Assembly: GCA_944320485.1 (NCBI GenBank)
Contig: CALUHQ010000060.1
Span: 1-48,754 of the forward strand
Length of the DNA stretch: 48,754 nucleotides
Direction of reading: 5' to 3'
Source of the DNA: Candidatus Methanomethylophilaceae archaeon
Lineage (GTDB): Archaea; Thermoplasmatota; Thermoplasmata; Methanomassiliicoccales; Methanomethylophilaceae
Shown piece after piece: positions 19,741-48,754 of this stretch. The position numbers were made by a program, and so were the translations under genes. The notes beneath the pieces are model-generated. The model ran no database searches, had not been told where the DNA came from, and saw nothing but the letters and a program-made list of their open reading frames with translations. Each line of letters starts with the position of its first letter. Position 1 is the stretch's first letter.

Positions 19741-20213
19741 GCCGAGACCAGCGAGGCCAGCTTGGACGGGTCGGACAGATTCTCCTTCACCCATGCCCTG
19801 ACCTCCTCCATCGTGCGGACATATTCCTGATAGAGCTCCAGGTCATCGGTGGCTGTGTACTCGGAGCGGGGGCGTATGGGTGCCAGGATCTGCTTCCCCT
19901 TCCAAGGGGTCTTGGGGGCCCACTCCTCGAAGACGCCACTGTCGGTGAAGATGACGTAGTCGTACTCCTGGTCCTTCCTCAGATGGTCCTCGTCCTCGAA
20001 GTCCTTGGAGACCTGCCTCCTCATATCCTCCCCGTTCTGGTACATCGCGGAGATGAGCTCGCAGTCCACGATGTCGTGCTCCGGCCCGGCGCTGTACGCC
20101 TCGTACATGTCAGGGAACAGCTTGGATGTGAAGTACTCTGCGACCTGTGACGAGAAATCGTTCTTTGCGTCCACGAACAGGACGCGGACCTTGTTCTCCT
20201 TCTTCTTGAACAT
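19737..20213 (-). CDS. LMW tyrosine phosphatase/ArsC-fold protein lacking the catalytic P-loop
   Basis: 158-residue protein with the overall LMW-PTPase/arsenate reductase pattern: an N-terminal strand VRVLFVDAKN, the helix SSQVAEYF, the YSAGPE segment and YDYVIFTDS. The catalytic CX5R loop is gone: aligned to FVCTGNSCRSQMAE, the Cys is Asp and the Arg is Ser. It therefore cannot form the cysteinyl-phosphate intermediate and is probably a binding or regulatory pseudoenzyme. An upstream in-frame ATG at 20234 with GGTGAG would add seven residues. It is coupled to tsr3 by ATGA. Ligand unknown. Confidence 0.7.
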   Translation of the reverse strand: MFKKKENKVRVLFVDAKNDFSSQVAEYFTSKLFPDMYEAYSAGPEHDIVDCELISAMYQNGEDMRRQVSKDFEDEDHLRKDQEYDYVIFTDSGVFEEWAPKTPWKGKQILAPIRPRSEYTATDDLELYQEYVRTMEEVRAWVKENLSDPSKLASLVSA

Positions 20214-20420
20214 TGGGACACAACCAGGATGCACAATAGCTCACCCTGCCTTAAACAATACGACAACCTCCGAATACGGATATCACGAACCTTGAACCTA
20301 CAAGAAAACCGATTTATTCGTCTCGCACCTTCCCCTCATGGTGATACAATCCATTGCGCCAGGATTCTCATAGGTGAATCCGATGGGGGAAACTCATGCA
20401 TACAGGTTCTTCCCCCTCAC

Positions 20421-21032
20421 ATGAATGATCCCGAGCTCGGCACCGAATCCGAGGTCCTTCAATGTGCATGCCTAGAGGGATGCAGAGGATGCTCGATGGT
20501 TAAGATTAGCGACCCCCATGGCTCCCTAAAAAGCATCCTATCTGACAAGATGGAGGGCGAGAATGATCTCGGGAAGTTCAACATAACCCGCATCTCCAAC
20601 AGACAGTACATAGCCATGGTCATCAACTACAAGTGCCAAGTTTCCAGGATTGCTACAGAGAATGGATGTTTCATTACCTCCGCTTCGAGAGAAAATAACG
20701 ATATGATCCTCTGGACCGTGGTAGGTGTTGACTCCGAATCAATCAAGAATATGGTGAGGGCGTTGAGGGACGAGGGCTGCTACGCCGAAAAGATAGCGAC
20801 ATACATCCCTGATTTTACTCCCACGTTGACTATCAAACAGGAAAAGGCCCTCAGGATGGCGTTTGATGCAGGGTATTACGAGATACCCAGGAAAAATAAC
20901 ATCCATGATCTTTGCAAGAGGAATGGACTGTCCCCCTCCACTTTTGATGTCACCTTGAGAACCGCTGAAAAGAAGATCGTATCGTACTACCTGCAGGGGA
21001 ACAAGGACAACATCGTGGACCGCAGACATTGA
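20421..21032 (+). CDS. Bat-type HTH_10 transcription regulator
   Basis: 203-residue archaeal regulator. The C-terminal HTH_10 domain spans about 145-200 and is recognisable by LTIKQEKALRMAFDAGYYEI, PRKN, LSPSTFDVTLRTAEKKI. An N-terminal sensor region begins with a cysteine cluster (C15, C17, C21, C24: CACLEGCRGC), a potential metal or redox site. ATG 20421 is the only standard start after the TATA-like GATTTATT near 20311; the frame is open further upstream, so a longer form is possible. It converges on the methyltransferase-permease pair and has similar, lower GC. It is a candidate local regulator of that pair. Binding site unknown. Confidence 0.72.
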   Translation: MNDPELGTESEVLQCACLEGCRGCSMVKISDPHGSLKSILSDKMEGENDLGKFNITRISNRQYIAMVINYKCQVSRIATENGCFITSASRENNDMILWTVVGVDSESIKNMVRALRDEGCYAEKIATYIPDFTPTLTIKQEKALRMAFDAGYYEIPRKNNIHDLCKRNGLSPSTFDVTLRTAEKKIVSYYLQGNKDNIVDRRH

Positions 21033-21042
21033 TGCATGATTT

Positions 21043-21072
21043 GGCCCGGACTGGAAAGATCATGTCCGGGCC
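21043..21072. terminator. Bidirectional hairpin between convergent genes
   Basis: GGCCCGGAC (21043-21051) is exactly complementary to GTCCGGGCC (21064-21072), a nine-base-pair stem with a 12-base loop. It lies between the stops of the HTH_10 regulator and the methyltransferase, so it can terminate both. Confidence 0.65.
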
Positions 21073-21097
21073 GGGGATTACATAATTTCTGCGAAAC

Positions 21098-22114
21098 TTA
21101 GAATCTGCTTATCGCCTCTGATATCGCCCTGACGTTCTCAAACTTAGAACCCACGGGAACATCGCATCCCGAACCTAGCAGGAATCCCCTGCGACCTCCC
21201 TCGTTGAGGATCCTGGTGGTCTCGCTTATGACGTTCTCTGGAGTCCCCATGTAAAGAACTTCCGTCGGATCGATGTTTCCGATTATTGCCATACGTTCAG
21301 CCATCCTGGAGACGGCATCACGAATGTCGACACACGAATCACAAGAGAATGCCTTGCATCCGGTATCTGCGATTCTGTCCAATCTGTCGCTAGTGCTTCC
21401 ACACATATGGATTATGAAGTCCTTGCCAGCACCCCTGATGACATCCCCTACCTCCCTGAGATGCCTCTGAGAGAACTTGTCGAAGTCCCCTGGACTCATC
21501 AGATCTCCTGAAGTTGTTGGATCGCAGGTTAGAACAGCATCGATGTCCCACTGGCAAATGAACTCCACAATCTCCTTGTCCAGCTCGGTCGCCTTCTTAA
21601 GAAGTGCCGTGACAAAGTCTTCGTCCACCAGGGAATCATATAGAAGATTGTCGACTCCCCTGAGCTCCCCTGCTAGAGTGAATGGTCCAAGAATGGATGC
21701 CGTGAGATAATGATCCTTTCCAAGGCTGTCGTACAACAACCCTGCGGTTGCCTTGGCGGATGCGGACCTGTAGAACTTGTTCAGATCGGGAAGCTCCAGC
21801 TTGTCCACATCTCCAGGCTCGTTGACCACATGTGTCTTGGTGCCTATCGTACCGAATTCTGGAATCTTGACCTTGCATCCCAGGGCCTCCACCGGGAACA
21901 TCCAGTCCCAAAGAACTTCCACGGCATCGATCCCACAAGGCGATACCACTCTCATTTGAGCCTCTGCCGCCTGCTTTGGGTCGTTGATGGAATCCATGGT
22001 CTTCAGCCCGGCATCCGCCAACGCCCAATATCCCTGGAAGGGTGGGAAGAAAGGCACACGGTCGACTTCCTCCCTGTTCAATGCAGACTCTACTATTTCC
22101 CTTGATGTTGTCAT
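21098..22114 (-). CDS. MtaA/MtbA-like methylcobamide:CoM methyltransferase (UroD family)
   Basis: 338-residue TIM-barrel protein of the uroporphyrinogen decarboxylase superfamily, in the branch of zinc thiol-methyltransferases. The zinc ligands of MtaA are conserved: H236 and C238 (IIHMCGS) and C317 (GSGCDVP), at almost the MtaA numbering (237/239/316). It would move a methyl group from a methyl-corrinoid to a thiol, in methanogens coenzyme M. No corrinoid protein or substrate methyltransferase is adjacent. Its ATG overlaps the permease stop by four bases, so it is made with a transporter. Whether the acceptor is CoM cannot be decided from sequence. Confidence 0.82.
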   Translation of the reverse strand: MTTSREIVESALNREEVDRVPFFPPFQGYWALADAGLKTMDSINDPKQAAEAQMRVVSPCGIDAVEVLWDWMFPVEALGCKVKIPEFGTIGTKTHVVNEPGDVDKLELPDLNKFYRSASAKATAGLLYDSLGKDHYLTASILGPFTLAGELRGVDNLLYDSLVDEDFVTALLKKATELDKEIVEFICQWDIDAVLTCDPTTSGDLMSPGDFDKFSQRHLREVGDVIRGAGKDFIIHMCGSTSDRLDRIADTGCKAFSCDSCVDIRDAVSRMAERMAIIGNIDPTEVLYMGTPENVISETTRILNEGGRRGFLLGSGCDVPVGSKFENVRAISEAISRF

Positions 22115-23598
22115 ACTGTAGCCTCCTCGTTGATGTCGGAAGATGTTTCTGTCATGTCCTGCAACTCATCCTTGTCGCTGTCCATGTACCTCTCCGGATG
22201 ACGTCCTTCGTCCCGCTTCAGAAGGAATCTGATCACACCTATGATGGCAAAAAACACGACCACCATGATTGCCATTGTGGGGTCCCCGTCTATTGCTGAC
22301 TTGATCACAGTGTATACCATCATTGCCGCCATGAACAAAGAAGAAATGGTCGCAATGACACCTGTGGCTGTGGTGCCTGGAGCAGTCCATGGCCTGTTGA
22401 CATTAGGACGAGACTTTCTGAGCTTCAGATAAGCGAGAGAAGCACCGAGGTACGTGAACCCGACTCCGAGGGCCATCAGGCTAAATGCAGCATTGATCCA
22501 GGAATCTCCTGATAAGACGATAACCGTCAGGATGAACACCATTAGAAGCATGAAATAGTTCCCCGTCGAGGGCATCCCATGCTTGTTTGTCTTTGCAAAA
22601 ATCGACGGAAGGGAGCCAGACATCCCCATGGAATGCAAAGTGCGCGCGCTCCCCATCCAGAACCCGATCATACAACAGCCCATGCAACAGAAATTGGCGA
22701 TTGCTATCGCCCACTTCAGCCATGACCCGACATACGCCTCTGCGAAGATGGCCCCTACCATGCCGTTGGAAGCATATAGGCTGGATATGTACTCGAAATT
22801 GGTCATTGATGGATCCAGAGAATACATGCCCGTCTCCGCCAGACAGATGAGTACGTCGAATACGATTACAAAGAATATGCATGCGACCATCAACTTCCAT
22901 ACCTTGTTCCTGGGATACGACCCCTCGACAGCGAACTGCGGTATCAGCTCGAATCCGAAAAACATCGTCACAAGGGCGGCAATCGCCAACAAGAAGCCTG
23001 CATCCATGCCTATTATGTCGTTGTATCCGACTATGCCTTCCTGGAAAAATGGCTCCCAGTTGGATGTACTGAACCCATCACTTGTGAAGAACATGACTAC
23101 CGACACCAGACCCACTATGACCAATATCACGAACAGTAGTGTCTGAAGGGATGTCATGAAGGTGAGATTCCTCGTGTTTAGAGCCGCCATCGCCAACATC
23201 AGTACCACGGCAACGCCTATGGTCAGGGATTGGGAAAACGTCCATCCGCCAAGGAACTGCAAAAGCATGGTCACACAAACGATCTGAAACAGTGTAACAA
23301 CGATGTACGAGAACATCGTTGTCCAGGACACCCAGTATGCTGATTCGCGACCGAAAGCCGCCTTGACGAAGTTGTATGTGCTTCCGCTGTCCTTGAACAT
23401 TCCACTAAGCTCCCCGTAACAGAAGGCTATAGGGATGCAGAGAAGCCCACAAGCAAGGAACGCCAGAGCCACCGACGTCCCGGTGTATCCAATCCACTGG
23501 GACGTCAGAAGCAGCCACGGCCCCAGAATGGATGCCGTACCGATGACGAACAACTTCGTCCCGCTGACCCTTCCGGCCAGTTTGGTGTTTTCTGCCAT
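22111..23598 (-). CDS. APC-superfamily amino acid/amine permease
   Basis: 495-residue integral membrane transporter with about 12 hydrophobic segments. The N-terminus GRVSGTKLFVIGTASILGPW carries the unwound TM1 region of the amino acid-polyamine-organocation superfamily, and GSTYNFVKAAFG matches the TM2-3 loop. The C-terminal 45 residues are charged and cytoplasmic. A strong AGGAGG ribosome-binding site lies eight bases before ATG 23598. It is first in a two-gene operon with the MtaA/MtbA-like methyltransferase. The substrate is unknown; a methylated amino compound is a reasonable guess from the partner. The codon choice is AT-richer than in the flanking genes. Confidence 0.85.
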   Translation of the reverse strand: MAENTKLAGRVSGTKLFVIGTASILGPWLLLTSQWIGYTGTSVALAFLACGLLCIPIAFCYGELSGMFKDSGSTYNFVKAAFGRESAYWVSWTTMFSYIVVTLFQIVCVTMLLQFLGGWTFSQSLTIGVAVVLMLAMAALNTRNLTFMTSLQTLLFVILVIVGLVSVVMFFTSDGFSTSNWEPFFQEGIVGYNDIIGMDAGFLLAIAALVTMFFGFELIPQFAVEGSYPRNKVWKLMVACIFFVIVFDVLICLAETGMYSLDPSMTNFEYISSLYASNGMVGAIFAEAYVGSWLKWAIAIANFCCMGCCMIGFWMGSARTLHSMGMSGSLPSIFAKTNKHGMPSTGNYFMLLMVFILTVIVLSGDSWINAAFSLMALGVGFTYLGASLAYLKLRKSRPNVNRPWTAPGTTATGVIATISSLFMAAMMVYTVIKSAIDGDPTMAIMVVVFFAIIGVIRFLLKRDEGRHPERYMDSDKDELQDMTETSSDINEEATV

Positions 23599-23650
23599 CT
23601 ATGTTTCCTCCTATGACTCATACAAGTCGGAAAAACACCGCCCTGAGCGT

Positions 23651-23678
23651 CTATAATGAAAATTGCGAACATGTTCGC
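23651..23678 (-). promoter_or_regulatory. Permease promoter with perfect 14-bp palindrome
   Basis: On the minus strand ATTATAG (23651-23657) is a TATA candidate about 55 bases before the permease ATG. Immediately upstream of it lies GCGAACATGTTCGC (23665-23678), a perfect palindrome centred on 23671/23672. Placement at the BRE/upstream edge fits an operator for a dimeric regulator. The remaining gap to 23866 contains the promoter of the HPS-RraA gene (TGTAAATAG near 23837) and nothing else recognised. Confidence 0.6.
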
Positions 23679-23866
23679 GTTGCCTCCCGTGATAAAACTG
23701 ACGCTGATTGAGACGACCCGAGACCAATCGTTATCATCAACGAGCGCATAGGGGGTCACGCCACGATGATGATCGTTACATCGAGCTGAGAATGATGATA
23801 GACGGGCGAGCTGAGTGGCAGACTTCTCCCAATATCTGTAAATAGGGCACTCCCGATGAAAAGGGC

Positions 23867-25159
23867 ATGCCGGTCCTCCAAGTGGCTCTCGATCTCATGC
23901 AGTTGAACAGAAGCATCGCCATCGCCCATGAGGCTGTGGAAGGCGGTGCGGACTGGATCGAGGTGGGCACCCCCCTCATCAAGAGCGAGGGCGCCGAAGC
24001 GATACGCGCCCTCAGGCGCGAGTTCCCCGGCCACAAGATCATCGCGGACACCAAGACGATGGACGTAGGGTCCTTCGAGGTGGAGATCGTGGCAAAGGCC
24101 GGCGCGGACATAGTCACTGTCCTCGGGCTGGCGGATGACGCCACCATCGAGGAGGCCGTGATGGCCGGCAGGAAGTACGGAGCGGAGATCATGGTCGACA
24201 TGATCAACGTCCCGGACCGCGTGGAGAGGGCCAAGCAGGTGGAGAAGCTCGGAGCGGCGTACATCTGCATGCACATGGGCATAGACACCCAGATGCGCGG
24301 GGAGGAGCCGCCCGTCGACGTCCTCAGAAGGATCGTCGAGTCCGTGAGCATACCCGTCGCGGTCGCTGGGGGGATCACGGCCGAGAACGCCGGGGAGTAT
24401 GTGGAGGCCGGAGCCACGGACGTCATCGTCGGAGGCGCCATAATCAAGACCGACGACATAGTATCCGCCGCAAGGAACATCAAGTCGGCCATGGCCGGGG
24501 CCAAGGTCGACACCAACCTCGCCAGGAAGTACGGGGAGGACGACCTGTTCGAGGCGTTCTCCAGGGTGTCCACGTGCAACATATCCGACGCCTACCACAA
24601 GCAGGGGGTCATGTTCGGCATCCTGCCACAGTCCCTCAAGCACAAGCAGAAGCTGGTCGGGAGGGCCCTCACGGTCCAGACCACCAACGGCGACTGGGCT
24701 AAGCCCGTGGAGGCCATCGACCGCGCCCGCGACGGTGATGTGATCGTCGTGGACGTGGGCGGCGCCCCCGTGGCGGTCTGGGGGGAGCTGGCATCGTGCT
24801 CTGCGATGGTCATGGGCGTCAGGGGGATAGTCATCGACGGCGCTGCCAGGGACATCGACGACATCAGGGAGCTCGGGTTCCCCGTGTTCTCCCGCACGGT
24901 CGCACCCTGCGCGGGCGAGCCCAAGGGCTACGGCGGCATAGGCATCGAGATCACGGTCGGCGGACAGAGGGTCCGCACAGGGGACTGGATCGTAGGCGAC
25001 GAGAGCGGGATCATGGTCATCCCCAAGGAGGTCGCCGTTGAGGTCGCCAACCGCGCCCTGGACGTCCACGAGAGAGAGAACAGGACCAGGGAGGAGATCC
25101 TCCGCGGATCCACGCTGTCCAAGGTCAACGAGCTGGCGAAATGGGAACCTGTGAAGTGA
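23867..25159 (+). CDS. Fused 3-hexulose-6-phosphate synthase / RraA-like aldolase
   Basis: 430-residue bifunctional protein. Residues 1-205 are HPS of the OMPDC superfamily, with the DXKXXD signature in IIADTKTMD. It would interconvert ribulose 5-phosphate plus formaldehyde with hexulose 6-phosphate, used in reverse by archaea to make pentoses. Residues about 225-410 are RraA/HMG-aldolase-like: GRALTVQTTNGDW, GDVIVVDVGG, WGELAS and IDGAARDIDDI. An E-X20-R-D arrangement replaces the D-X20-R-D of characterised aldolases. The pairing is known in archaeal annotations, but the job of the second domain is unsettled. The start has AAGGG close upstream and is probably leaderless. Confidence 0.9.
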   Translation: MPVLQVALDLMQLNRSIAIAHEAVEGGADWIEVGTPLIKSEGAEAIRALRREFPGHKIIADTKTMDVGSFEVEIVAKAGADIVTVLGLADDATIEEAVMAGRKYGAEIMVDMINVPDRVERAKQVEKLGAAYICMHMGIDTQMRGEEPPVDVLRRIVESVSIPVAVAGGITAENAGEYVEAGATDVIVGGAIIKTDDIVSAARNIKSAMAGAKVDTNLARKYGEDDLFEAFSRVSTCNISDAYHKQGVMFGILPQSLKHKQKLVGRALTVQTTNGDWAKPVEAIDRARDGDVIVVDVGGAPVAVWGELASCSAMVMGVRGIVIDGAARDIDDIRELGFPVFSRTVAPCAGEPKGYGGIGIEITVGGQRVRTGDWIVGDESGIMVIPKEVAVEVANRALDVHERENRTREEILRGSTLSKVNELAKWEPVK

Positions 25160-36842: not shown

Positions 36843-38021
36843 TCATTCGCTGCGGACGATCATGGTGACGGCGTTTCCGCCGCCGAGGCACAGGGTGGCC
36901 AGACCGGTCTCCTTGTTCCTGTCCTTCATCGCGTAGAGCAGGGTGGTGAGGACACGGGCACCGGAGCATCCGATGGGGTGACCGAGGGCGACTGCGCCTC
37001 CGTTGACGTTGAAGATCTCGTCGGGGACGTTGAGCTCCTTCTTGACGGCGCAAGATGCGGAGGCGAAGGCCTCGTTGTGCTCGAAGAGGTCGATGTCGTC
37101 GATGGTCATGCCGGCCTTCTTGAGGACGTGCTGGGTGGCGGGTATGGGGGCCTCCATGATGTACTCGGGCTTGACTCCCCTCTCGCCGTAGGCCACGATG
37201 GACGCCATGGGCTTGATGCCGTGCTCCTCGGCCCATTTCCTGGAGGTGATGACGAGCGCGGATGCACCGTCGCTAAGCTGGGAGGAGTTCCCGGCGGTGA
37301 CGATACCGTCCTTCTTGAAGACGGGCTTGAGCTTCCCGAGGGACTCCATGGTGGAATCCTCCCTGACGCCCTCATCGGTGTCGAAGATTATGTCGCCCTT
37401 CTTGGACGGGATCGTGACGGGGAGAATCTCTGCCTTGAACTTCCCGGCCTTGATCGCGGCGGCGGCCTTCTGGTGGGACTCCACGGACAGCCTGTCCGCG
37501 TCCTCCCTGGTGACATTGAACCTCTCGGCGACGATCTCGCCGGTGAATCCCATGTGCTGGTTGTTGAAGATGTCCCAGAGACCGTCATGGACCATCGAGT
37601 CCACTGCGGGCTGGTCGTTCATCCTGAATCCCCATCTGGCACCGGGGAGGAGGTAGGGTGCCTGGGACATGCTCTCCATGCCTCCGACCGCCAGGACGTT
37701 GTACTCTCCGGCCTTGATCGCGTCCGCGGCGAGCATGGCCGACTTCAGTCCGGAACCGCACACGGCGTTGACCGTGAAGGAGCCGATCTCGACGGGAAGA
37801 CCTGCACCGATGGCCGCCTGCCTGGCGGGGTTCTGTCCAAGACCCGCGCCGATGACGTTACCCATTATGCACTCCTCGATGTCGGTGGGCTGGAGACCGG
37901 CCCTGTTGACCGCCTCCTTTACGACCATCGCACCGAGGTCGGTCGCCTTGAATCCGGCGATCGCCTTTCCGTATTTTCCTATGGGTGTCCTGACTGCGCT
38001 GATAATGACTGCCTCATCCAT
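36843..38021 (-). CDS. Acetyl-CoA C-acetyltransferase (biosynthetic thiolase, bacterial type)
   Basis: 392-residue thiolase condensing two acetyl-CoA to acetoacetyl-CoA. The catalytic residues match the Zoogloea enzyme in motif and numbering: C88 in NAVCGSGL, H348 in VALGHPIG and C378 in TLCLGGGN. The overall sequence (VIISAVRTPIGKYG, GGMESMSQAPYLL) is of the bacterial AtoB/PhaA kind, and no HMG-CoA synthase or DUF35 gene sits beside it, unlike the common archaeal mevalonate cluster. AGAGGGGAT precedes ATG 38021, and a TATA box is present at 38056-38065. It may feed the mevalonate pathway or be a transferred gene. Confidence 0.93.
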   Translation of the reverse strand: MDEAVIISAVRTPIGKYGKAIAGFKATDLGAMVVKEAVNRAGLQPTDIEECIMGNVIGAGLGQNPARQAAIGAGLPVEIGSFTVNAVCGSGLKSAMLAADAIKAGEYNVLAVGGMESMSQAPYLLPGARWGFRMNDQPAVDSMVHDGLWDIFNNQHMGFTGEIVAERFNVTREDADRLSVESHQKAAAAIKAGKFKAEILPVTIPSKKGDIIFDTDEGVREDSTMESLGKLKPVFKKDGIVTAGNSSQLSDGASALVITSRKWAEEHGIKPMASIVAYGERGVKPEYIMEAPIPATQHVLKKAGMTIDDIDLFEHNEAFASASCAVKKELNVPDEIFNVNGGAVALGHPIGCSGARVLTTLLYAMKDRNKETGLATLCLGGGNAVTMIVRSE

Positions 38022-38055
38022 GGGATATCCCCTCTATGAGGCCCCATCCAGCGAA

Positions 38056-38065
38056 TTATATAAAA
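38056..38065 (-). promoter_or_regulatory. TATA box of the thiolase gene
   Basis: Minus-strand TTTTATATAA, centred about 40 bases before ATG 38021. It leaves a short leader that contains the AGAGGGGAT ribosome-binding site. It overlaps nothing coding; the tiaS stop is at 38075. Confidence 0.65.
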
Positions 38066-38074
38066 GAGTGTCGA

Positions 38075-39400
38075 TTATATACTACGACCATTGACGAACT
38101 CGACCGGCTGGATGAGCCCCATCCTCTTGAGAGGCTTCGAGAGATGCCTCCTGGCAGCGGTCGGAGGCTCGTACCACCCCGGGACGATCTCCCTCTGCAC
38201 GACCTGCATGACCGGTTCGTAGGATTTCGTGCCGCACTTCTTGCACTTGAACTTCTTTCCGCTGCCGGTCGACTTCATGGTGCGTGAGCATATAGGACAG
38301 ACAGGGTTGCAGACCTTCCTGAGCTCCTGCACAGTCTCGATGACATGGAACTTCTCGATGTTCAGGGTGCGCGGCTGGTCCCTCAGCTCCCCCACCACCT
38401 CTATCTCGTCACCCGGATAGAGCCAATCTATCGCGTAGCGGAACTCCTTGGACGGCTCGTAAGCCCCGCACACCACCGTGCCGAAGTCCGTATCCAAATC
38501 GAAAAACACGTGTCCGCCCTCGATGTGCCTCGCACGGGAGGAGACCCTTCCCTTCAGCATGTACGACTGGTTTGGAACCAGTGTCCTTGGATTGTGTATT
38601 ATGTGGTCGTCCGTGCCCTGGTTGGTGAGGAACACCATCCAGCGCTCTATCGGTTCGGTGACGATCTTCGCCGAGGCCTCGATGAGATCCGCCTCGACAT
38701 CGCCTCTCAGACCGTACATCACCGGACACGGTGTGGAGGGGATCATGGCCACCTTCTGGGTCCTGTCCTCCCAGCTGTTGAATGTGGTGGGATAGCCGTG
38801 TTCCACATCCCTTATCGTCAAGGGTTTGAACACGCGCTCCGTCCCCCATCTGGACTCAGGTCTGTATGAAAGCAGCTCGAATGTGCTGTCCCTGGGTCTC
38901 CATGCCATGCCGCAGGTGCAGCCGACGAGTCCGCGACCGTTGCCTATCGTGTATGTGAGACCCCCTATCCTGGATATCTCCTCGTCGATGACGCCGCGGT
39001 CCATGATCGTCCTGACCCCTCCCCAATAGAATGACTGGGAGGGCTTGATCCTGGATATCAGAAGTCCAGGGTCCGAATCGTCCTCGTGATGTTCGAGTAT
39101 GTGAGGGATTATACGCTCCCGCATCGACTCCGGATCGGGCTCCCATGCGGAGCACCTGTCGTAGCAGAAGATCTTCCTGTCCCCTATCATGCCGATGAAC
39201 CTCCTCGGTCCGACACCCTTCCCGAAACGCATCACGAGTGCGCCGTTGCCGCGGGTCTTCCAGGGAGTGGCGGGATTCAGCCTGACGAGCCTGGGATTGC
39301 CTATCAGGTCCAGATCATCGAACTCGCGTATGATCTCGGTGGCGAGGAAGGTCGTGCAGTTGCCCTTCATCGAATCGGTATCGTCGACAGCTACGAACAT
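38075..39400 (-). CDS. tiaS: tRNA(Ile2) agmatinylcytidine synthetase TiaS
   Basis: 441-residue archaeal enzyme that attaches agmatine to C34 of tRNA-Ile(CAU), so that AUA is read as isoleucine. MFVAVDDTDSMKGNCTT carries the DDTD motif of the TCKD domain. A central region, an OB-fold (about 285-365: YMLKGRVSS...DEIEVVGELRD) and a zinc ribbon CPIC...CKKC (about 380-400) follow in the expected order. ATG 39400 gives the usual start; the frame is open to a TTG at 39418. It is probably monocistronic. Confidence 0.95.
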   Translation of the reverse strand: MFVAVDDTDSMKGNCTTFLATEIIREFDDLDLIGNPRLVRLNPATPWKTRGNGALVMRFGKGVGPRRFIGMIGDRKIFCYDRCSAWEPDPESMRERIIPHILEHHEDDSDPGLLISRIKPSQSFYWGGVRTIMDRGVIDEEISRIGGLTYTIGNGRGLVGCTCGMAWRPRDSTFELLSYRPESRWGTERVFKPLTIRDVEHGYPTTFNSWEDRTQKVAMIPSTPCPVMYGLRGDVEADLIEASAKIVTEPIERWMVFLTNQGTDDHIIHNPRTLVPNQSYMLKGRVSSRARHIEGGHVFFDLDTDFGTVVCGAYEPSKEFRYAIDWLYPGDEIEVVGELRDQPRTLNIEKFHVIETVQELRKVCNPVCPICSRTMKSTGSGKKFKCKKCGTKSYEPVMQVVQREIVPGWYEPPTAARRHLSKPLKRMGLIQPVEFVNGRSI

Positions 39401-39465
39401 GGATTCCCATCCCTGCAACCATCGTTGAGTATACTAAAATAACATTTGGAATGTTAGTACAGGCG

Positions 39466-39771
39466 TTAATATCTATTTTGGAAAGGCTCTATGTCGAGAT
39501 TACGTATCGATGACACGAAGAATATATTCCCGTCATCGGAGAACTCGCCGGACACCGCATAGTATCCGAGATCCACGGGCTCCTCGTAGGAGAAGCATCT
39601 GAACCCGGGACCGTCGGGGTTCAGCACGAACACGAAACCGCTCGTGCTCTCATGCACATCGGACACTATCCCGGTGTAATCGTACGCCCCCGGACCGTTG
39701 TAGTCGGAGAACAGCAGGAATGTTCCCGTGACCATGATGACCGCGATGCCCAACACCGCATATCTGTTCAT
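39466..39771 (-). CDS. Small membrane-anchored protein with OB-like beta domain
   Basis: 101-residue unrecognised protein. Residues 4-22 form one hydrophobic N-terminal anchor (YAVLGIAVIMVTGTFLLF). The rest faces outside and reads as five beta-strands with glycine turns (YTGIVSDVHE, FVFVLNPD, GYYAVSGEF, IFFVSSI), compatible with an OB-fold. A TATA-like TTTATTATATG at about 39790-39800 makes ATG 39771 leaderless. It lies next to the left ORB-like element of the putative origin. No function can be given. Confidence 0.65.
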   Translation of the reverse strand: MNRYAVLGIAVIMVTGTFLLFSDYNGPGAYDYTGIVSDVHESTSGFVFVLNPDGPGFRCFSYEEPVDLGYYAVSGEFSDDGNIFFVSSIRNLDIEPFQNRY

Positions 39772-39828
39772 GAAACAGGCTTCGTGATATCATATAATAA
39801 AGAGAAGGAGTGGAGTTTAACTGATAAG

Positions 39829-39856
39829 CCCCCCACCCCTTTGTTTCCACTGGAAA
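39829..39856 (-). other. Origin Recognition Box-like element, left copy
   Basis: On the minus strand the dyad TTTCCAGTGGAAA (39844-39856) is followed, after four bases, by the G-string GGGGTGGGGGG (39829-39839). A dyad TTCCA-N-TGGAA plus an adjacent G-run is the layout of archaeal ORB sites bound by Orc1/Cdc6. A longer hairpin (CCCCTTT/AAAGGGG) encloses the dyad. AT-rich DNA (39779-39828) abuts the G-string side and could be the unwinding element. Confidence 0.75.
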
Positions 39857-39883
39857 CGGCAAAAGGGGTATGCCGTGTTTCGA

Positions 39884-39964
39884 TCAGCTTCCGATGACAT
39901 ACAGGATGCCGATGAAAGCCAGGATTCCGAGAACGCAAGCTCCTATGACCAGCCAACCTTTCAT
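39884..39964 (-). CDS. 26-residue single-helix membrane peptide
   Basis: A tiny ORF encoding MKGWLVIGACVLGILAFIGI followed by LYVIGS: one uninterrupted hydrophobic helix with a positive N-terminus. It has complete expression signals: AAGGAGTGA seven bases before ATG, and a TATA box (minus-strand CTTTATATT, 40007-40015) about 47 bases upstream. It diverges from orc1/cdc6 and lies between that gene and the left ORB-like element. No homologue is recognised. Such a peptide could bind a membrane complex or act as a small regulator. Confidence 0.65.
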   Translation of the reverse strand: MKGWLVIGACVLGILAFIGILYVIGS

Positions 39965-40006
39965 TTAGGTTCACTCCTTTGAATAGGAGTCAGTAAACAT
40001 ATGCCC

Positions 40007-40084
40007 AATATAAAGGATGGGTGGGTTCCAAAGACATCCCATCGGAACCATCCCCGGGAATCCAATTCTCCAAACGCTTATAAT
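40007..40084. promoter_or_regulatory. Divergent promoters of the membrane peptide and orc1/cdc6, with inverted repeat
   Basis: Two TATA boxes point apart: AATATAAAG at 40007-40015 (minus) and CTTATAAT at 40077-40084 (plus, about 68 bases before the cdc6 ATG). Between them GGTTCC (40024-40029) and GGAACC (40044-40049) form an inverted repeat with 20-base centre spacing, two helical turns. It could be an operator for both genes. Confidence 0.55.
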
Positions 40085-40148
40085 CAAGTCTGTCATACAC
40101 AGGAAAGAAAACGCCGAACCGGTGTTTTCGAATGAAGGAGTGCAAACG

Positions 40149-41384
40149 ATGACTGAAACGAACATATTCACTCAATACATGCAGAAAAGGAATGTTATAG
40201 TGAAGAACAAGAAGATCCTCCAGTCATCGTACATACCCGAGAACCTTCCTCACAGGAGCGACAAGATCAACGAGATCGTCGAGATCATCGCCCCTGCGCT
40301 GAACAAGGACAAACCTTCAAACATCCTCATCTTCGGGAAGACGGGAACAGGCAAGACAGCTGTCATGAACTTCGTCGGGAAGGAACTGAGGAAGGCTGAT
40401 GAGAACCAGCAGAATTGCAGTTTCATATACGTGAATTGTGAAGTCGTCGACACCACATATGGAATCCTCTACAACATCTCCAACCAGATCATCACGGATC
40501 CCAGCAAGAGGATCCCGTTCACCGGATGGAGTCTGGATAAGATCCTCGCGGAGCTCACCAACTACATCGACAAGGAGGACAAGGTGTTCATCATTGTCCT
40601 CGATGAGATCGATAGGTCGTTCCAAAAGAATGGTGATGACATATTCTATTATCTGACAACAATCAATGAGGTTCTCCAGAACTCGAAGGTCTCGATCATC
40701 GGGATAACCAACAACGCGAACTTCACCGAACTTCTCGGACAGAGGGTGAAGAGCAGACTCGGAGAGGAGAAGATAATCTTCCCTCCATACAACGTGGAGC
40801 AGCTTCAGGACATCCTCTACGCAAGGGCCAGGGACGCCTTCGACGACGGTGTCCTGGACGACGACGTCATACCCTACTGTGCCGCTCTTTCTGCTCAGGA
40901 GATGGGTGATGCGAGGAGGGCCCTCGACCTTCTGAGGATGGCAGCCGATTTTGCGGAGAGGAACGGTGACACGAAGATCACCGGAGCCCATGTCCGCTAC
41001 GCGAAGAACAAGATCGAACTCGATGCCGTTTCCGAGGTCGTGAAGACGCTCACGCTTCAGTCCAAGATAGTCCTCATGAGTATCATCAGGAACACGGACG
41101 AAGGGATGTCGACGATGACCACCGGGGATGTCTACTCCACATACAAGTACATCTGCGAGGCTATAGCCCAATCCGTTCTCACTCAGAGGAGAGTCGCCGG
41201 TCTGATCTCCGAGCTCGATATGCTCGGCATCATACATGCAAGGGTCAAATCGTTCGGAAGGGCTGGTCGCACCAAGGAGATCGAGTTGAGCACTCCGAAG
41301 GAGATCATCGCGATGATCAAGAACGACGAGATGTTTAAGGGACTCGATTCCTACAAGCCCAAGAAACAGATGACCTTGATGTGA
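40149..41384 (+). CDS. cdc6: Orc1/Cdc6 replication initiator
   Basis: 411-residue initiator that binds origin boxes and loads MCM. The AAA+ domain shows Walker A FGKTGTGKTA, Walker B IIVLDEIDR and sensor 1 GITNNANF. The lid region AQEMGDARRALDLLRMA and a C-terminal winged helix (about 310-395) complete the family architecture. ATG 40149 has GGAGTG six bases upstream; the frame is open further 5' but starts inside the promoter. Two ORB-like elements flank it in opposite orientation. Codon choice is somewhat AT-richer than in most of the window. Confidence 0.95.
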   Translation: MTETNIFTQYMQKRNVIVKNKKILQSSYIPENLPHRSDKINEIVEIIAPALNKDKPSNILIFGKTGTGKTAVMNFVGKELRKADENQQNCSFIYVNCEVVDTTYGILYNISNQIITDPSKRIPFTGWSLDKILAELTNYIDKEDKVFIIVLDEIDRSFQKNGDDIFYYLTTINEVLQNSKVSIIGITNNANFTELLGQRVKSRLGEEKIIFPPYNVEQLQDILYARARDAFDDGVLDDDVIPYCAALSAQEMGDARRALDLLRMAADFAERNGDTKITGAHVRYAKNKIELDAVSEVVKTLTLQSKIVLMSIIRNTDEGMSTMTTGDVYSTYKYICEAIAQSVLTQRRVAGLISELDMLGIIHARVKSFGRAGRTKEIELSTPKEIIAMIKNDEMFKGLDSYKPKKQMTLM

Positions 41385-41466
41385 TCCGGTTCGGTTCTGT
41401 CCGAATCATTCGGTCTCGGCGATGTTCCGGAAGGCCTCCGAAGCGATGGGGTATCCCTTTTTCTCG

Positions 41467-41493
41467 TTCCAGTGGAAATGGAGGGGTGGGGGG
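41467..41493 (+). other. Origin Recognition Box-like element, right copy
   Basis: On the plus strand the dyad TTCCAGTGGAAA (41467-41478) is followed after four bases by GGGGTGGGGGG (41483-41493). It is the inverted counterpart of the left copy and carries the same eleven-base G-string. It sits between the convergent cdc6 and signal peptidase stops. Confidence 0.75.
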
Positions 41494-41501
41494 CTCAGGG
41501 C

Positions 41502-42353
41502 TCATCTGGAGCATTCCCTGACCCTGGAGATCCTGTAGATGAGTCCCTTCTGGTTCCTGTAAAGGGTCAATCCGTCTAGCAGCATGAGGAATCCGAAGAT
41601 CACTATGATGCACATTATGAGCGACGGGAGGCTGTTGGTGACGTACTCCAGGTTCTCCCCTCCGTTGCTTATGAGGATCTTCAGGGTGCCTAGCCAGGGT
41701 ATCTCTAGGAACGGCACGGATCTGATGTCGTCCATTGATACCAGATCATGCTGGACTCCGAGGATGCTCACCTGATCGAAGTAGTTGTTCCTGGTGTTGT
41801 CCCCCATGGTCAGATATCCGCTGTGCTTGTTCAGACTGTCGACATTGATCTCTACATCCTTTCCTGAAACGGTGATGTCCTCGAAGACCAACGTTCCGGT
41901 GATGTTGTACGGATCGGGATTCTGGACCCTTTGACCTGTCTCATCCTCGTAGTACCATGTCCCTGCATAACCATCGAGACTCGGTGCCGACCATGTGTCT
42001 GTTCCAGGATTGTAGTCCAACCACACTATCGCCCTGTGTATCACGGGGTTGTAGTTGCTGCCGCGGTCGTATATGATCACCGATCCGTAGTCCCCGAAGG
42101 ATGAATGCCCGTTCTGGGTACCCTCGACATAACTGTATATCTGGGTCTTCGAGGGGTCCATCACCATGACGACGTCGCCGGTGTCGATGACACCTATCTC
42201 GGACTCCGTCTGGCTATGTTGCATGCTCTGGGACATGACGACGCTGAACGGGGTCGTCATCCCTGTGTACATGATGGTCCCGACGAAACCTCCGACTACG
42301 ATGACGAAGACGACGCCTATGGCGATGACGAGGTTCCTGTCGGATCTGTTCAC
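41502..42353 (-). CDS. Signal peptidase I, archaeal/ER type (S26B)
   Basis: 283-residue membrane protease that cleaves signal peptides. An N-terminal membrane helix (8-30) is followed by the serine motif SQSM (S43 is the likely nucleophile), the VIHRAI box with the His that replaces bacterial Lys in S26B enzymes, and the GDN box ([14 protein letters not shown]). A C-terminal membrane helix lies near 242-262 and ends in a basic tail. It is longer than minimal archaeal homologues owing to an insert around 110-150 ([18 protein letters not shown]). Confidence 0.92.
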
Positions 42354-42454
42354 GGAGGCGGTTGAAGGTTTATTTCATTAATACACTTTCCACGGGATCC
42401 GATCCATCTGGACCGCACCTCAAGATGATATACTGCGAGTGTAATCAGCATCGC

Positions 42455-42913
42455 ATGGAAAGACCCAGCACCGATGAGTACTTCATGGAGATGGCGAGGC
42501 TCGTGTCGACAAGGTCGACGTGTCTCAGGAGGAAGGTCGGCGCGGTCATAGTCAAGGACAAGAGGGTCCTGTCCACGGGCTACAACGGGTCCCCCCGCGG
42601 GACACGCCACTGCGAGGAGATGGGATGCATCAGGGTGCAGATGAACGTGCCGTCTGGCACTAGGCACGAGCTGTGCCGTGGCGTCCATGCGGAGCAGAAC
42701 GCCGTGACCCAGGCGGCGTACTTCGGTGTCAGCGTCAATGGTGCCACGATCTACACCACCACGTTCCCCTGTTCCATGTGTGCCAAGATACTCATAAACG
42801 CGGGTATTAAGGAGATAGTGTACGACGAGGGGTACGTCGACGACCTCTCGAAGTCGCTCCTGGCTGAAACCGATATTATTATCCGCGAATTCCATCCAAT
42901 CAAGAACCCCTGA
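42455..42913 (+). CDS. Deoxycytidylate (dCMP) deaminase
   Basis: 152-residue zinc deaminase turning dCMP into dUMP for thymidylate synthesis. The zinc motifs are GVHAEQNAV (His and catalytic Glu) and TFPCSMCAK (two Cys). A typical extra substrate segment [17 protein letters not shown] is present. A TATA-like GATATACT near 42430 places the transcription start at ATG 42455, so the message should be leaderless; ATG 42425 is in frame but inside the promoter. ComE-type proteins share the fold, but this context and length favour dCMP deaminase. Confidence 0.9.
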
Positions 42914-42937
42914 CTGCTGATTTCGTAGCGTTCATTG

Positions 42938-42953
42938 CTTTATATTATAAAAG
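42938..42953 (+). promoter_or_regulatory. Promoter of the A-type ATP synthase operon
   Basis: CTTTATATTATAAAAG is a strong double TATA-like element, 61-76 bases before the first ATPase start. The leader that follows (about 45 bases) ends with GGGGAGTG, the ribosome-binding site for the TTG start of subunit H. Confidence 0.65.
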
Positions 42954-43013
42954 GAGAGGATTACAGTTAAGTACCCCTCCTAGGATACGATAGCAGGGTC
43001 GGGGAGTGTTAAT

Positions 43014-43332
43014 TTGAGCCGAACTGACATACTTTCGGAAATAAAGAAGGCGGAGGCGGACGCTGACGCCAAGGTCAACCAGGCCGAGGTCGACAAGAAG
43101 TCCGCAATCGCCGAGGCTCGCAGAGATTCTGTGAAGAAGATTCAGGACGCTGAGGCTCAGATGCGCAGCTCTTACGAATCCGCCGTAGCCAAGGAGATGG
43201 CCGATCTCGCCGTCAAACGTGACGCGATGCTCGCCGAGGGCAACAAAGAGGCCTCCGGCATCGGTTCCAAATCCGAGGCTAAGATGCAGGAAGTCAGAGA
43301 CTATCTCAACAAAGAAGTAGAGAGGATCCTAA

Positions 43333-43346
<14 letters not shown>
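43014..43346 (+). CDS. A-type ATP synthase subunit H (peripheral stalk)
   Basis: 110-residue, almost entirely coiled-coil protein rich in Ala, Lys and Glu; with subunit E it forms the peripheral stalk. The first codon is TTG with GGGGAGTG five bases upstream. It heads the operon H-I-K-E-C-F-A and overlaps subunit I by 14 bases. Identification rests on composition, length and position. Confidence 0.87.
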
Positions 43347-45659
<2,313 letters not shown>

Positions 45660-45678
45660 GCCGTCGAGAGGTATTCTC

Positions 45679-46236
45679 ATGGCACTAGCGAACGTAACTC
45701 AGGAGATCCTCAAGGCTGCCGACGAGAAGGCCGCCGCCATCAAAGCGGAGGCCGACGCCGAGATCGCCAAGATCCGCGCCGATGCAGATGCGAAGGTCGC
45801 CGAGTTGAAAGAGAAAGAGGACAAGAGGCTCAAAGAAGCAGTTGAGCGTCTCAGCCGCCAGGAGCTGTCCAGCGCCGAGCTGGAGAGCAAGAAGATCGTT
45901 CTGGCCAAGAAGAAGGAGATCCTCAAGGAAGCCTTCGACAGCGCTCTGTTCGAGCTGGAGAACGCGTCCGACGACGCCAAGCTCAAGCAGTACAGGGCCA
46001 TGGTCGAGGTCGCCAAGACGATCATCGAGAACCCCAAGGCACTCATGTCTGAGAAAGACTCCTTCACCGCAGCCGACCTCGGCGTCTTCTCCGTGGAGAA
46101 GGACAGCAGGATCGCAGCGGGACTCATCCTCCAGAGCGAGGACGGTCAGATGGAAGTGGACATGCAGTACTCCACGATCCTCCAGTCCATCTGGGATCGT
46201 GAGATCAAGACGGTGTCTGACATACTGTTCGGGTGA
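45679..46236 (+). CDS. A-type ATP synthase subunit E (peripheral stalk)
   Basis: 185-residue peripheral-stalk subunit. An N-terminal coiled coil (about 5-85: alternating A, K, E, D) leads to a globular C-terminal domain (about 100-185) that contacts the catalytic head. The pattern SAELESKKIVLAKKKEILKE fits NtpE/AtpE of archaea. It lies 19 bases after the proteolipid gene and is followed by subunit C, whose ATG is five bases beyond its stop. Confidence 0.92.
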   Translation: MALANVTQEILKAADEKAAAIKAEADAEIAKIRADADAKVAELKEKEDKRLKEAVERLSRQELSSAELESKKIVLAKKKEILKEAFDSALFELENASDDAKLKQYRAMVEVAKTIIENPKALMSEKDSFTAADLGVFSVEKDSRIAAGLILQSEDGQMEVDMQYSTILQSIWDREIKTVSDILFG

Positions 46237-46241
46237 GACCT

Positions 46242-47297
46242 ATGTTCAGCCGCAGCGGAAGAACAGGAAACTACGCGTACACCGTGTCCAGGGTGAAGGC
46301 CAAGAAGGGCCTGCTCCTTAAGGACGAGGACTACAACAAGATGCTGCAGATGGCAGTCCCCGAGGTGTCCCGCTACATCAGCGAGTCGGGATACCAGAAG
46401 GAGATGTCCGAGCTCGCCGGAAGGATCGAGGGAATCGACCTGGTGGAGCATGCGACCTACGCCAACATGGCGAAGGTCTTCAGCAGCATCCTCCAGGCCT
46501 CCCAGGGTGAGCTGCACACGATGGTTGCCGCATATCTCGAGAAGTGGGATATCTGGAACCTCAAAGTGATCCTCCGCGGTAAATCATACGGTCTCAGCGT
46601 CGACGAGGTCAGAGAGGATCTCGTCCCCGCCGGCAGTCTGAAGTCCGAGGACCTCGAGAAGCTCATGGGCATCGAGAACGTGGACGACATACTCGCCAAC
46701 TACAGCAAGATGGTGCATGTGCAGATCCCCCAGGACGTCATGAACGCCTACAAGGCCAACGGCAACCTGGGTGAGATCGAGGACTACCTGGACAAGTTCC
46801 ACTGGACCAGGCTCCTGAAGAGCATCAACCCCTCTTCGAGGCCCACCAGGATGTTCCAGGACTACGTCAGGATGGAGATCGACGTCATCAACCTCGAGAC
46901 CATCCTGAAGCTGAAAGCCGAGGGTATCTACGGCGAGCAGGTGATGAAGTACATCATCCCCGGAGGGAAGGACATCACACCCAAGGTGGCCACCCAGCTC
47001 GCCAACGCGGAGACCTTCGCCGCAGCGTCCTCGGACCTGCAGCAGCTGGAGTTCTACGACATCATCAAGGACATCGTGGAGTCCGACAACGTCACAGTGA
47101 GGGAGGTGGTCACGGAGATGAAGAAATACGAGATCGCCGAGGCCAACAAGTTCTCTCACATGTACCCTCTGTCCGTGTGCCCCATCCTCGATTACATGAT
47201 CCACAAGGAGATCGAGGTCGGGAACATCAGGACGATCGCGAGGGGTATCGAGAGCGGACTGAACACAGAGACCATCAAAGGACTGCTGGTGATCTGA
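46242..47297 (+). CDS. A-type ATP synthase subunit C (d-type, central-stalk socket)
   Basis: 351-residue all-helical, funnel-shaped protein that connects the central stalk to the c-ring. YAYTVSRVKAKKGLLL, EKWDIWNLKVILRGK and the C-terminal YPLSVCPILDYMIHKEIEVG are typical of V/A-ATPase subunit C/d. ATG 46242 with GGTGAG upstream is preferred over GTG 46233, which lies inside the subunit E stop. Its stop overlaps the subunit F start by one base (TGATG). Confidence 0.94.
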   Translation: MFSRSGRTGNYAYTVSRVKAKKGLLLKDEDYNKMLQMAVPEVSRYISESGYQKEMSELAGRIEGIDLVEHATYANMAKVFSSILQASQGELHTMVAAYLEKWDIWNLKVILRGKSYGLSVDEVREDLVPAGSLKSEDLEKLMGIENVDDILANYSKMVHVQIPQDVMNAYKANGNLGEIEDYLDKFHWTRLLKSINPSSRPTRMFQDYVRMEIDVINLETILKLKAEGIYGEQVMKYIIPGGKDITPKVATQLANAETFAAASSDLQQLEFYDIIKDIVESDNVTVREVVTEMKKYEIAEANKFSHMYPLSVCPILDYMIHKEIEVGNIRTIARGIESGLNTETIKGLLVI

Positions 47298-47602
47298 TGG
47301 AGATTGCGGTAATAGGCAGCGACGAGTTCGTGCTGGGCTTCAGGCTCGCCGGAATCAGGCGCGTGTTCGTCGCCAACCCTGACAACTACCAGGAGAAGAT
47401 GCTGGAGGCTATGTCCCAGCCATCAATTGGTATCCTCGCAGTGGATGCGAAGGATCTCGACAATCTCTCTTTCGCCGTGAGGCACAGGGTGATGGATTCG
47501 ATCCAGCCCGTCGTCGTGCCCGTCGGAGGCGACCAGAGCGACCTCCGCGAGAAGGTGAAGAGGGCCATTGGCGTTGACTTATACAAAACAGAGGATGAAT
47601 AA
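47297..47602 (+). CDS. A-type ATP synthase subunit F
   Basis: 101-residue central-stalk subunit with a Rossmann-like fold that works with subunit [21 protein letters not shown] is the standard N-terminus, followed by GILAVDAKD and PVVVPVGG. The start overlaps the subunit C stop by one base, and the stop is two bases before the subunit A start. Confidence 0.94.
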
Positions 47603-47604
47603 GA

Positions 47605-48754
47605 ATGAGCACTGAAGGTGTAATTTACAGGGTCGCCGGACCTGTGGTGACTGCCACCGGTATCTCGCCCAAGATGTACGACGTCGTGCATGTTGGAAAC
47701 GAGCAGCTGATGGGAGAGGTCATCAAGATCATCGGCGACTACTCCATCATCCAGGTTTACGAGGACACATCCGGAATCAAACCCGGAGAGCCGGTCACAA
47801 ACTCCGGCAAACCCCTCTCCGTTGAACTCGGCCCCGGCCTCCTCACATCCGTTTACGACGGAATCCAGAGGCCCCTGCCCGTTCTCAGGGAGAAGATGGG
47901 AGACTTCATCTACCGTGGAGTGTCCGCGCCTGGACTGGATCACGAGAAGAAATGGGACTTCACTCCCGTAGCCAAAGAGGGCGACGTCGTCACCGCCGGA
48001 CAGGTCATCGGTACCGTCCAGGAGGGCCCCATGGTCCACAAGATCATGGTCCCCATCGACATCGCCAAGGGGAAGATCGACTCCATCAAGAGCGGATCCT
48101 TCACCATCGACGAGACCGTCGCCGTCATCGACGGAAAGGACGTCTGCATGGTCCAGTACTGGCCCGTCCGTAACCCCAGGCCCGTCGCCGAGAAGTATCA
48201 GCCCGACGTCCCCCTGGTCACCGGACTCAGGGTCCTGGACACCATGTTCCCCCTCGCGAAGGGAGGAGCGGCCGCCATCCCCGGTGCGTTCGGTACCGGA
48301 AAGACGGTTACCCAGCAGTCCCTGGCCAAGTTCTCCGACGCCGACATCGTCGTCTACATCGGATGCGGTGAGCGCGGAAACGAGATGACCGAGGTTCTGA
48401 CCGAGTTCCCCGAGCTGGACGACCCCAGGACCGGGGAGAAGCTGATGAAGAGGACCGTCCTGATCGCCAACACGTCCAACATGCCCGTCGCCGCTCGTGA
48501 GGCCTCCGTCTACACCGGAATGACCATCGCCGAGTACTTCAGGGACATGGGATACAACGTGGCTCTCATGGCCGACTCCACCTCCAGGTGGGCCGAGGCC
48601 ATGCGTGAGATCTCCTCCAGGCTCGAGGAGATGCCCGGAGAAGAGGGATACCCCGCCTACCTGGCCGGACGTCTCTCCGAGTTCTACGAGCGTGCCTGCC
48701 GTGCCAAGACACTCTGCGGCGAGGACGGATCCATCTCCGTCATCGGAGCCGTCT
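47605..48754 (+). CDS. A-type ATP synthase catalytic subunit A, partial (C-terminus beyond right edge)
   Basis: The first 383 residues of the catalytic subunit, which normally has about 580-590. Walker A is GAFGTGKTV in [10 protein letters not shown]. The A-subunit-specific insert (about 110-200, [20 protein letters not shown]) distinguishes it from subunit [10 protein letters not shown] supplies the catalytic glutamate, and [20 protein letters not shown] is also present. Subunits B and D are expected further right. No intein is seen in the visible part. Confidence 0.96.

Follow-up and report, generated by a model that had tools for sequence, protein, structure and literature searches.

To our knowledge, no replication origin has been mapped in the Methanomassiliicoccales, an order of gut methanogens. 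A previous study by Borrel et al. (2014) listed origin recognition boxes (ORBs) for three members of the order, Ca. M. alvus, M. luminyensis and Ca. M. intestinalis, and its order consensus is GTTCCAGTGGAAATGG-AGGGGT, with a GGGGGT extension in some (PMC4153887). In Ca. M. alvus, the ORBs (ORB1-4) flank orc1/cdc6.1 on both sides (PMC4153887). The same study reports no ORBs near orc1/cdc6.2 and has ATP synthase genes adjoining the origin. The paper on ISO4-H5 argues similarly, from a Cdc6.1 with ORBs and a distant Cdc6.2 without them (PMC5011839). The minimal origin at oriC1 of H. hispanica consists of AT-rich DNA flanked by two inverted ORBs whose G-strings occupy the outer ORB ends; neither ORB and neither G-string is dispensable (PMC3936714). 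Around haloarchaeal oriC1, cdc6 is accompanied by genes for a GTP-binding protein and a signal peptidase (PMC4010727, Fig. 2 legend). In Sulfolobus, opposed ORBs direct MCM onto the intervening DNA (PMC12141716, PMC6742236).

We show herein that the window (the whole stretch of 48,754 nucleotides that was analysed) contains an inverted pair of ORBs around an orc1/cdc6.1 gene, and that this locus is very probably (at a rough probability of 0.85) a chromosomal replication origin of the oriC1/orc1-1 type. The original prediction of a probable replication origin is supported by the GC skew in relatives, by the roughly two full copies of the box per genome and by the published Methanomassiliicoccales ORB. 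This kind of feature has already been described, and the arrangement is conserved and not peculiar to the present genome.

Both boxes read TTCCAGTGGAAA + 4 bp + GGGGTGGGGGG, and they lie on opposite strands with 1.6 kb between them. The upstream ORB, TTTCCAGTGGAAACAAAGGGGTGGGGGG (39829 to 39856, minus strand), consists of a dyad, 4 bp and a G-string directed away from cdc6, and has an inverted partner and a conserved position in nearly all loci of the genus. The downstream ORB, GTTCCAGTGGAAATGGAGGGGTGGGGGG (41466 to 41493, plus strand), is identical to the published consensus through AGGGGT, whereas the left box differs in the spacer. Exact TTCCAGTGGAAANNNNGGGGTGGGG occurs at 39831 to 39855 (minus) and at 41467 to 41491 (plus), and the exact matches run on through GGGGTGGGGGGCT, to 39829 on the left and to 41493 on the right. 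The two dyad and G-string sites proposed to enclose orc1/cdc6 on opposite strands were thus confirmed in position. Each box is accompanied on its 5' side by a flank element (motif ATACCCTTTT): ATACCCCTTTT (39861 to 39871, minus) adjoins the upstream ORB, and GGTATCCCTTTTT (41450 to 41462, plus) precedes the downstream one.

The enclosed orc1/cdc6.1 initiator gene (40149 to 41384, plus strand) matches NF001625 (E=1.6e-156) and starts at the ATG at 40149, after GGAG. Another in-frame ATG, at 40017, was considered as its start; relatives do not support it, and 40149 fits better. The product is closest by sequence to Sulfolobus Orc1-1 (2qby_A, 6.8e-100) and matches the Aeropyrum ORC1 solved on ORB DNA (2v1u) at 2e-92; its winged-helix and initiator-motif regions are well conserved in the alignments. 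The usual right neighbour by synteny, a signal-peptidase-like gene (41502 to 42353, minus strand), encodes a product with a homologue (28% identity, E=2e-26) that in turn gives a weak match to TIGR02228. It is followed by the published origin neighbourhood, namely a dCMP-deaminase-like gene and then the first part of the A1A0 ATP synthase operon (42362 to 47297, plus strand), with V_ATPase_I and ATP-synt_C matches at 43333 to 45659. That the genes mostly run away from the region proved true of the TiaS, thiolase and ATP-synthase genes, but not of the right neighbour at 41502 to 42353, which points toward it. A search for RNA families between 39.0 and 42.5 kb gave no match, and a 101-aa ORF at 39466 to 39771 matched nothing in Pfam or NCBIfam. 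Around the origin and the ATP synthase genes (38000 to 48000), the GC content is 50-58%, down from about 62%; a further drop, to 50-53%, occurs at 20000 to 24000 of the window.

In common with archaeal origins of the oriC1 type, the locus has an ORB motif that occurs above chance, at least two opposed ORBs with outward G-strings, and an adjoining orc1/cdc6 gene of the Orc1-1 type. As published for the Methanomassiliicoccales, the ORB consensus lies near cdc6.1 and A1A0 ATP synthase genes are close by. The ORB consensus with its GGGGG extension, the initiator paralogue and the ATP-synthase neighbourhood are all shared with the origins of Borrel et al. (2014). Unlike Ca. M. alvus, where a closely spaced ORB pair occupies each side, the window has one ORB per side; unlike the bracket here, both ORBs of ISO4-H5 are reported downstream of cdc6.1 (PMC5011839). 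Inverted ORBs with long, outward G-strings and an initiator beside a signal-peptidase gene are likewise found in haloarchaeal oriC1, whose GTP-binding-protein gene on the other side may be compared with hflX in families related to the present one. No perfect G-rich inner repeat was seen here. While a minimal AT-rich segment between the two ORBs suffices in H. hispanica, the present boxes lie 1.6 kb apart with the initiator gene between them. The likeness to Sulfolobus oriC1 (ORB3-DUE-ORB2) lies in opposed ORBs that serve one initiator of the Orc1-1 type and have the loading zone between them (PMC12141716); there, however, a strongly AT-rich DUE separates the boxes, and here only a moderately AT-rich promoter region.

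By analogy with other archaea, Orc1/Cdc6.1 from the enclosed gene would bind one ORB per side as an oriented monomer, its winged helix presumably contacting the dyad and its AAA+/ISM part the G-string. As a result of the outward G-strings, the initiators on the two sides would be turned toward one another and would recruit MCM onto the intervening 1.6 kb. The polarity in the window is the same as in H. hispanica oriC1 and in Sulfolobus, so both loading and melting are predicted to occur inside the bracket. Strand opening would most likely take place in the AT-richer divergent promoter region between cdc6 and a microprotein gene described below, and two forks would then exit outward. This region (39965 to 40148), with TATA-like sites at 40009 and 40078, is the best candidate for the melting site (DUE). 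Its AT content is 55%; over the loci of the genus it averages 62%, versus 53% in the gene. The moderate AT content (55%), with no strong AT-rich DUE, counts against an origin, as does the spacing, since 1.6 kb with a whole gene inside is wider than is known for mapped archaeal origins. Two opposed binding sites reportedly support bidirectional helicase loading in yeast (Coster and Diffley, 2017), and the wide, gene-enclosing pair resembles that arrangement and thus constitutes a natural archaeal test of the maximal distance between loading sites. The locus also offers exact and cheap targets, namely two boxes, one initiator and one melting candidate.

AT-rich DNA had originally been placed on the outer side of the left copy. 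It does occur there (60 bp at 39760 are 67% AT), but the inside is equally AT-rich (67% at 39955 and 68% at 40157). As a melting site, the outer stretch is disfavored by this equality and by the polarity of the boxes. Within the promoter region lies a weak dyad, TCCCATCGGAA (40037 to 40047), which has two mismatches and is possibly a degenerate mini-ORB without a G-string. Perfect inner dyads without a G-string occur in 7 of 21 genus loci, versus 0.01 expected from mononucleotide shuffles, and dyads with at most one mismatch in 12 of 21, versus 0.13 expected; here only the version with two mismatches remains.

Inner dyads of this kind, present without G-strings in the cdc6 promoter of many relatives, could join the upstream ORB as a compact unit. 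One side alone might then be the origin, and the other ORB might be regulatory, acting in Cdc6 titration or autorepression like the downstream cluster of H. hispanica oriC2 (oriC2D), which provides a precedent (PMC3936714). The large spacing between the boxes and the persistence of a lone core after mvhA (see below) also fit such an arrangement. We nonetheless regard it as unlikely, given that both boxes are full-strength, single, always opposed and covarying, whereas titration clusters are multi-copy, and that outgroup families retain an outward pair at a similar distance around a different gene.

Copy number bears on the nature of the boxes. No further ORB match with up to three mismatches was found in the 48,754-nt window, and 100 dinucleotide shuffles of the window gave 0 matches to the pattern. 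In its own assembly (1.71 Mb, 83 contigs, 88% complete), the two boxes are the only perfect copies, followed by one core with a single mismatch (contig C20) and one site with two mismatches (C24); at this completeness and fragmentation, additional copies could be missing. The strict pattern finds one box per strand around cdc6.1 in most genomes of the genus, while a reversed control pattern gave 0 matches in the 41 genomes searched. Overall, each genome has about two full copies, which bracket cdc6.1, and at most a few partial ones. The search for further copies proposed with the original prediction therefore returned the two around cdc6 and no dispersed repeat.

Every box, including the one near mvhA, stands shortly past a stop codon, in sense orientation and with a T-tract before it, as would be expected of terminators or of repeats dispersed at gene ends. 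Such an identity is highly improbable, because the full copies number about two per genome and always surround cdc6.1, because the dyad and G-string match Orc1 sites, and because other families carry one or two boxes upstream of the cdc6 start codon. Many copies at unrelated gene ends were not found, and the idea was rejected on copy number.

Within a genome, the two boxes are more alike than expected. The 23-bp boxes are identical in 32 of 57 pairs, a tally compiled by hand in which phylogeny is accounted for at the genus level only, and they differ at a mean of 0.93 positions within a genome versus 2.15 between genomes of one genus; a within-genus permutation test gave 0/10000. The covariation spans the box, reaches about 20 bp into its 5' flank (ATACCC-TTTT) and is gone beyond, the far flanks showing none (3500/5000 and 1794/5000). 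The flank element ATACCCCTTTT, present in most boxes of the genus, likewise covaries with the partner box, whereas the DNA farther out does not; it is a candidate for an extended ORB, for the T-tract terminator of the microprotein gene, or for both. A functional element of about 50 bp, fitting joint recognition by one factor, is indicated. The present window is a partial exception, with spacers ACAAA and ATGGA. No description of within-genome covariation of ORBs was found in the literature searched.

Such similarity would also arise if the boxes were an inverted repeat homogenized by gene conversion; the origin might then lie elsewhere, for example near cdc6.2. The similarity could stem from very short conversion tracts, although it ends so sharply at the element that a tract would need to be about 50 bp. 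No full ORB was found on the cdc6.2 contig, which ends 26 bp past the match to that gene, and none is reported near it in the papers (PMC4153887, PMC5011839). In addition, the skew turns at or near cdc6.1, and an origin elsewhere is accordingly very hard to credit.

The genome itself is too fragmented for skew analysis, and two complete relatives of the same genus, G014 and G007, were used instead. The first of these, G014, is a single contig of 1.889 Mb, and its Cdc6 is 93% identical. Its cumulative GC skew, after detrending, has a minimum 43 kb from cdc6.1 and a maximum near the opposite side, at 1.056 Mb; none of 2000 block shuffles gave as large a range. For G007 (1.594 Mb), of which half was sampled, the curve is lowest at cdc6.1 and highest at about 0.87 Mb (9 of 5000 shuffles). 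The measurement in relatives only, and at a resolution of tens of kb, weighs against the origin reading. The anticipated inflection was therefore observed, as a sign change at or near cdc6.1, in both relatives.

A clean pair, with the upstream box on the minus and the downstream box on the plus strand, surrounds cdc6 in most genomes of the family, 57 such pairs having been compiled. Across the order, the boxes form an outward-facing pair at a distance of mostly 1.3-2 kb; the enclosed gene is cdc6 in the present family and hflX in the others. In those other families, as well as in some more distant members of the Thermoplasmata, cdc6 has one or two boxes before it, in the direction of the gene and upstream of its start codon. 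At such loci, a further opposed box lies about 1.3-2 kb off, beyond hflX, which is transcribed away from cdc6; at L195 and L197-L201, two outer boxes enclose an hflX match. By comparison, the search for hflX gave nothing in the 25 genomes of the genus or in the family loci examined. We infer that hflX was lost in the family, that the box behind it stayed, and that the box on the cdc6 side moved from before to behind cdc6. The gene order TiaS - (hflX) - cdc6 - signal peptidase - dCMP deaminase is otherwise kept. The literature searched yielded no description of an order-wide bracket in which hflX and cdc6 are swapped as passengers.

Between the upstream box and cdc6 lies a 26-aa single-TM microprotein gene, MKGWLVIGACVLGILAFIGILYVIGS (39884 to 39964, minus strand), divergent from cdc6 and preceded by a Shine-Dalgarno sequence and a TATA-like box. 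Its product measures 26-31 aa across relatives; nearly every family locus examined has it, and it is recognizable in most of them (L183-L194, L258). At L185, an ATG pattern gives no match, while the profile finds one in the same genome (G006). The profile matches 23 of 25 genomes of the genus, solely at the origin locus, and 0 of 16 genomes of other families; among the genomes tested, the microprotein is restricted to the family. The two remaining genus genomes, G012 and G015 (each about 96% complete), also yielded no cdc6.1, owing either to an assembly gap at the origin or to real loss. A dN/dS of about 0.157 and differences that fall mainly in third codon positions point to purifying selection on the microprotein, which is predicted to span the membrane. 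No model in Pfam or NCBIfam matches it, and no microprotein at an origin was found described in the literature searched. It is apparently an unannotated gene fixed at an origin, and our guess is that it serves as a tether to the membrane or as a small regulator acting on this locus. A tentative possibility is that, in the Methanomassiliicoccales, the origin is a wide bracket in which two opposed ORBs, at a spacing of mostly 1.3-2 kb, act jointly, that the helicase-loading zone between them holds an entire gene (hflX, or in Methanomethylophilaceae cdc6), and that the boxes coevolve as a pair. In Methanomethylophilaceae, a conserved membrane microprotein of 26-31 aa would then replace hflX and could connect the membrane, or regulation, with the origin or its initiator.

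A third ORB core elsewhere in the genome also counts against an origin at the bracket. This core, CCANTGGAAANNNNGGGG, lies 77-263 bp past mvhA, a hydrogenase gene, and shares its strand; mvhA was found in 19 genus genomes, of which 8 have the core. No description of it was found in the literature searched. It is the one at G000:C20:2436-2455 (L003:1501-1520) in the present genome, and occurs also at L141 and G014:C1:1554231-1554248. Its spacer does not track the origin boxes of the same genome, and it may be a weak Cdc6 site (titration) or a remnant. Another lone core, L142:1639-1656 (G005:C24:21639-21656, minus), was seen in one genome only, in a convergent intergenic region behind a gene on the same strand.
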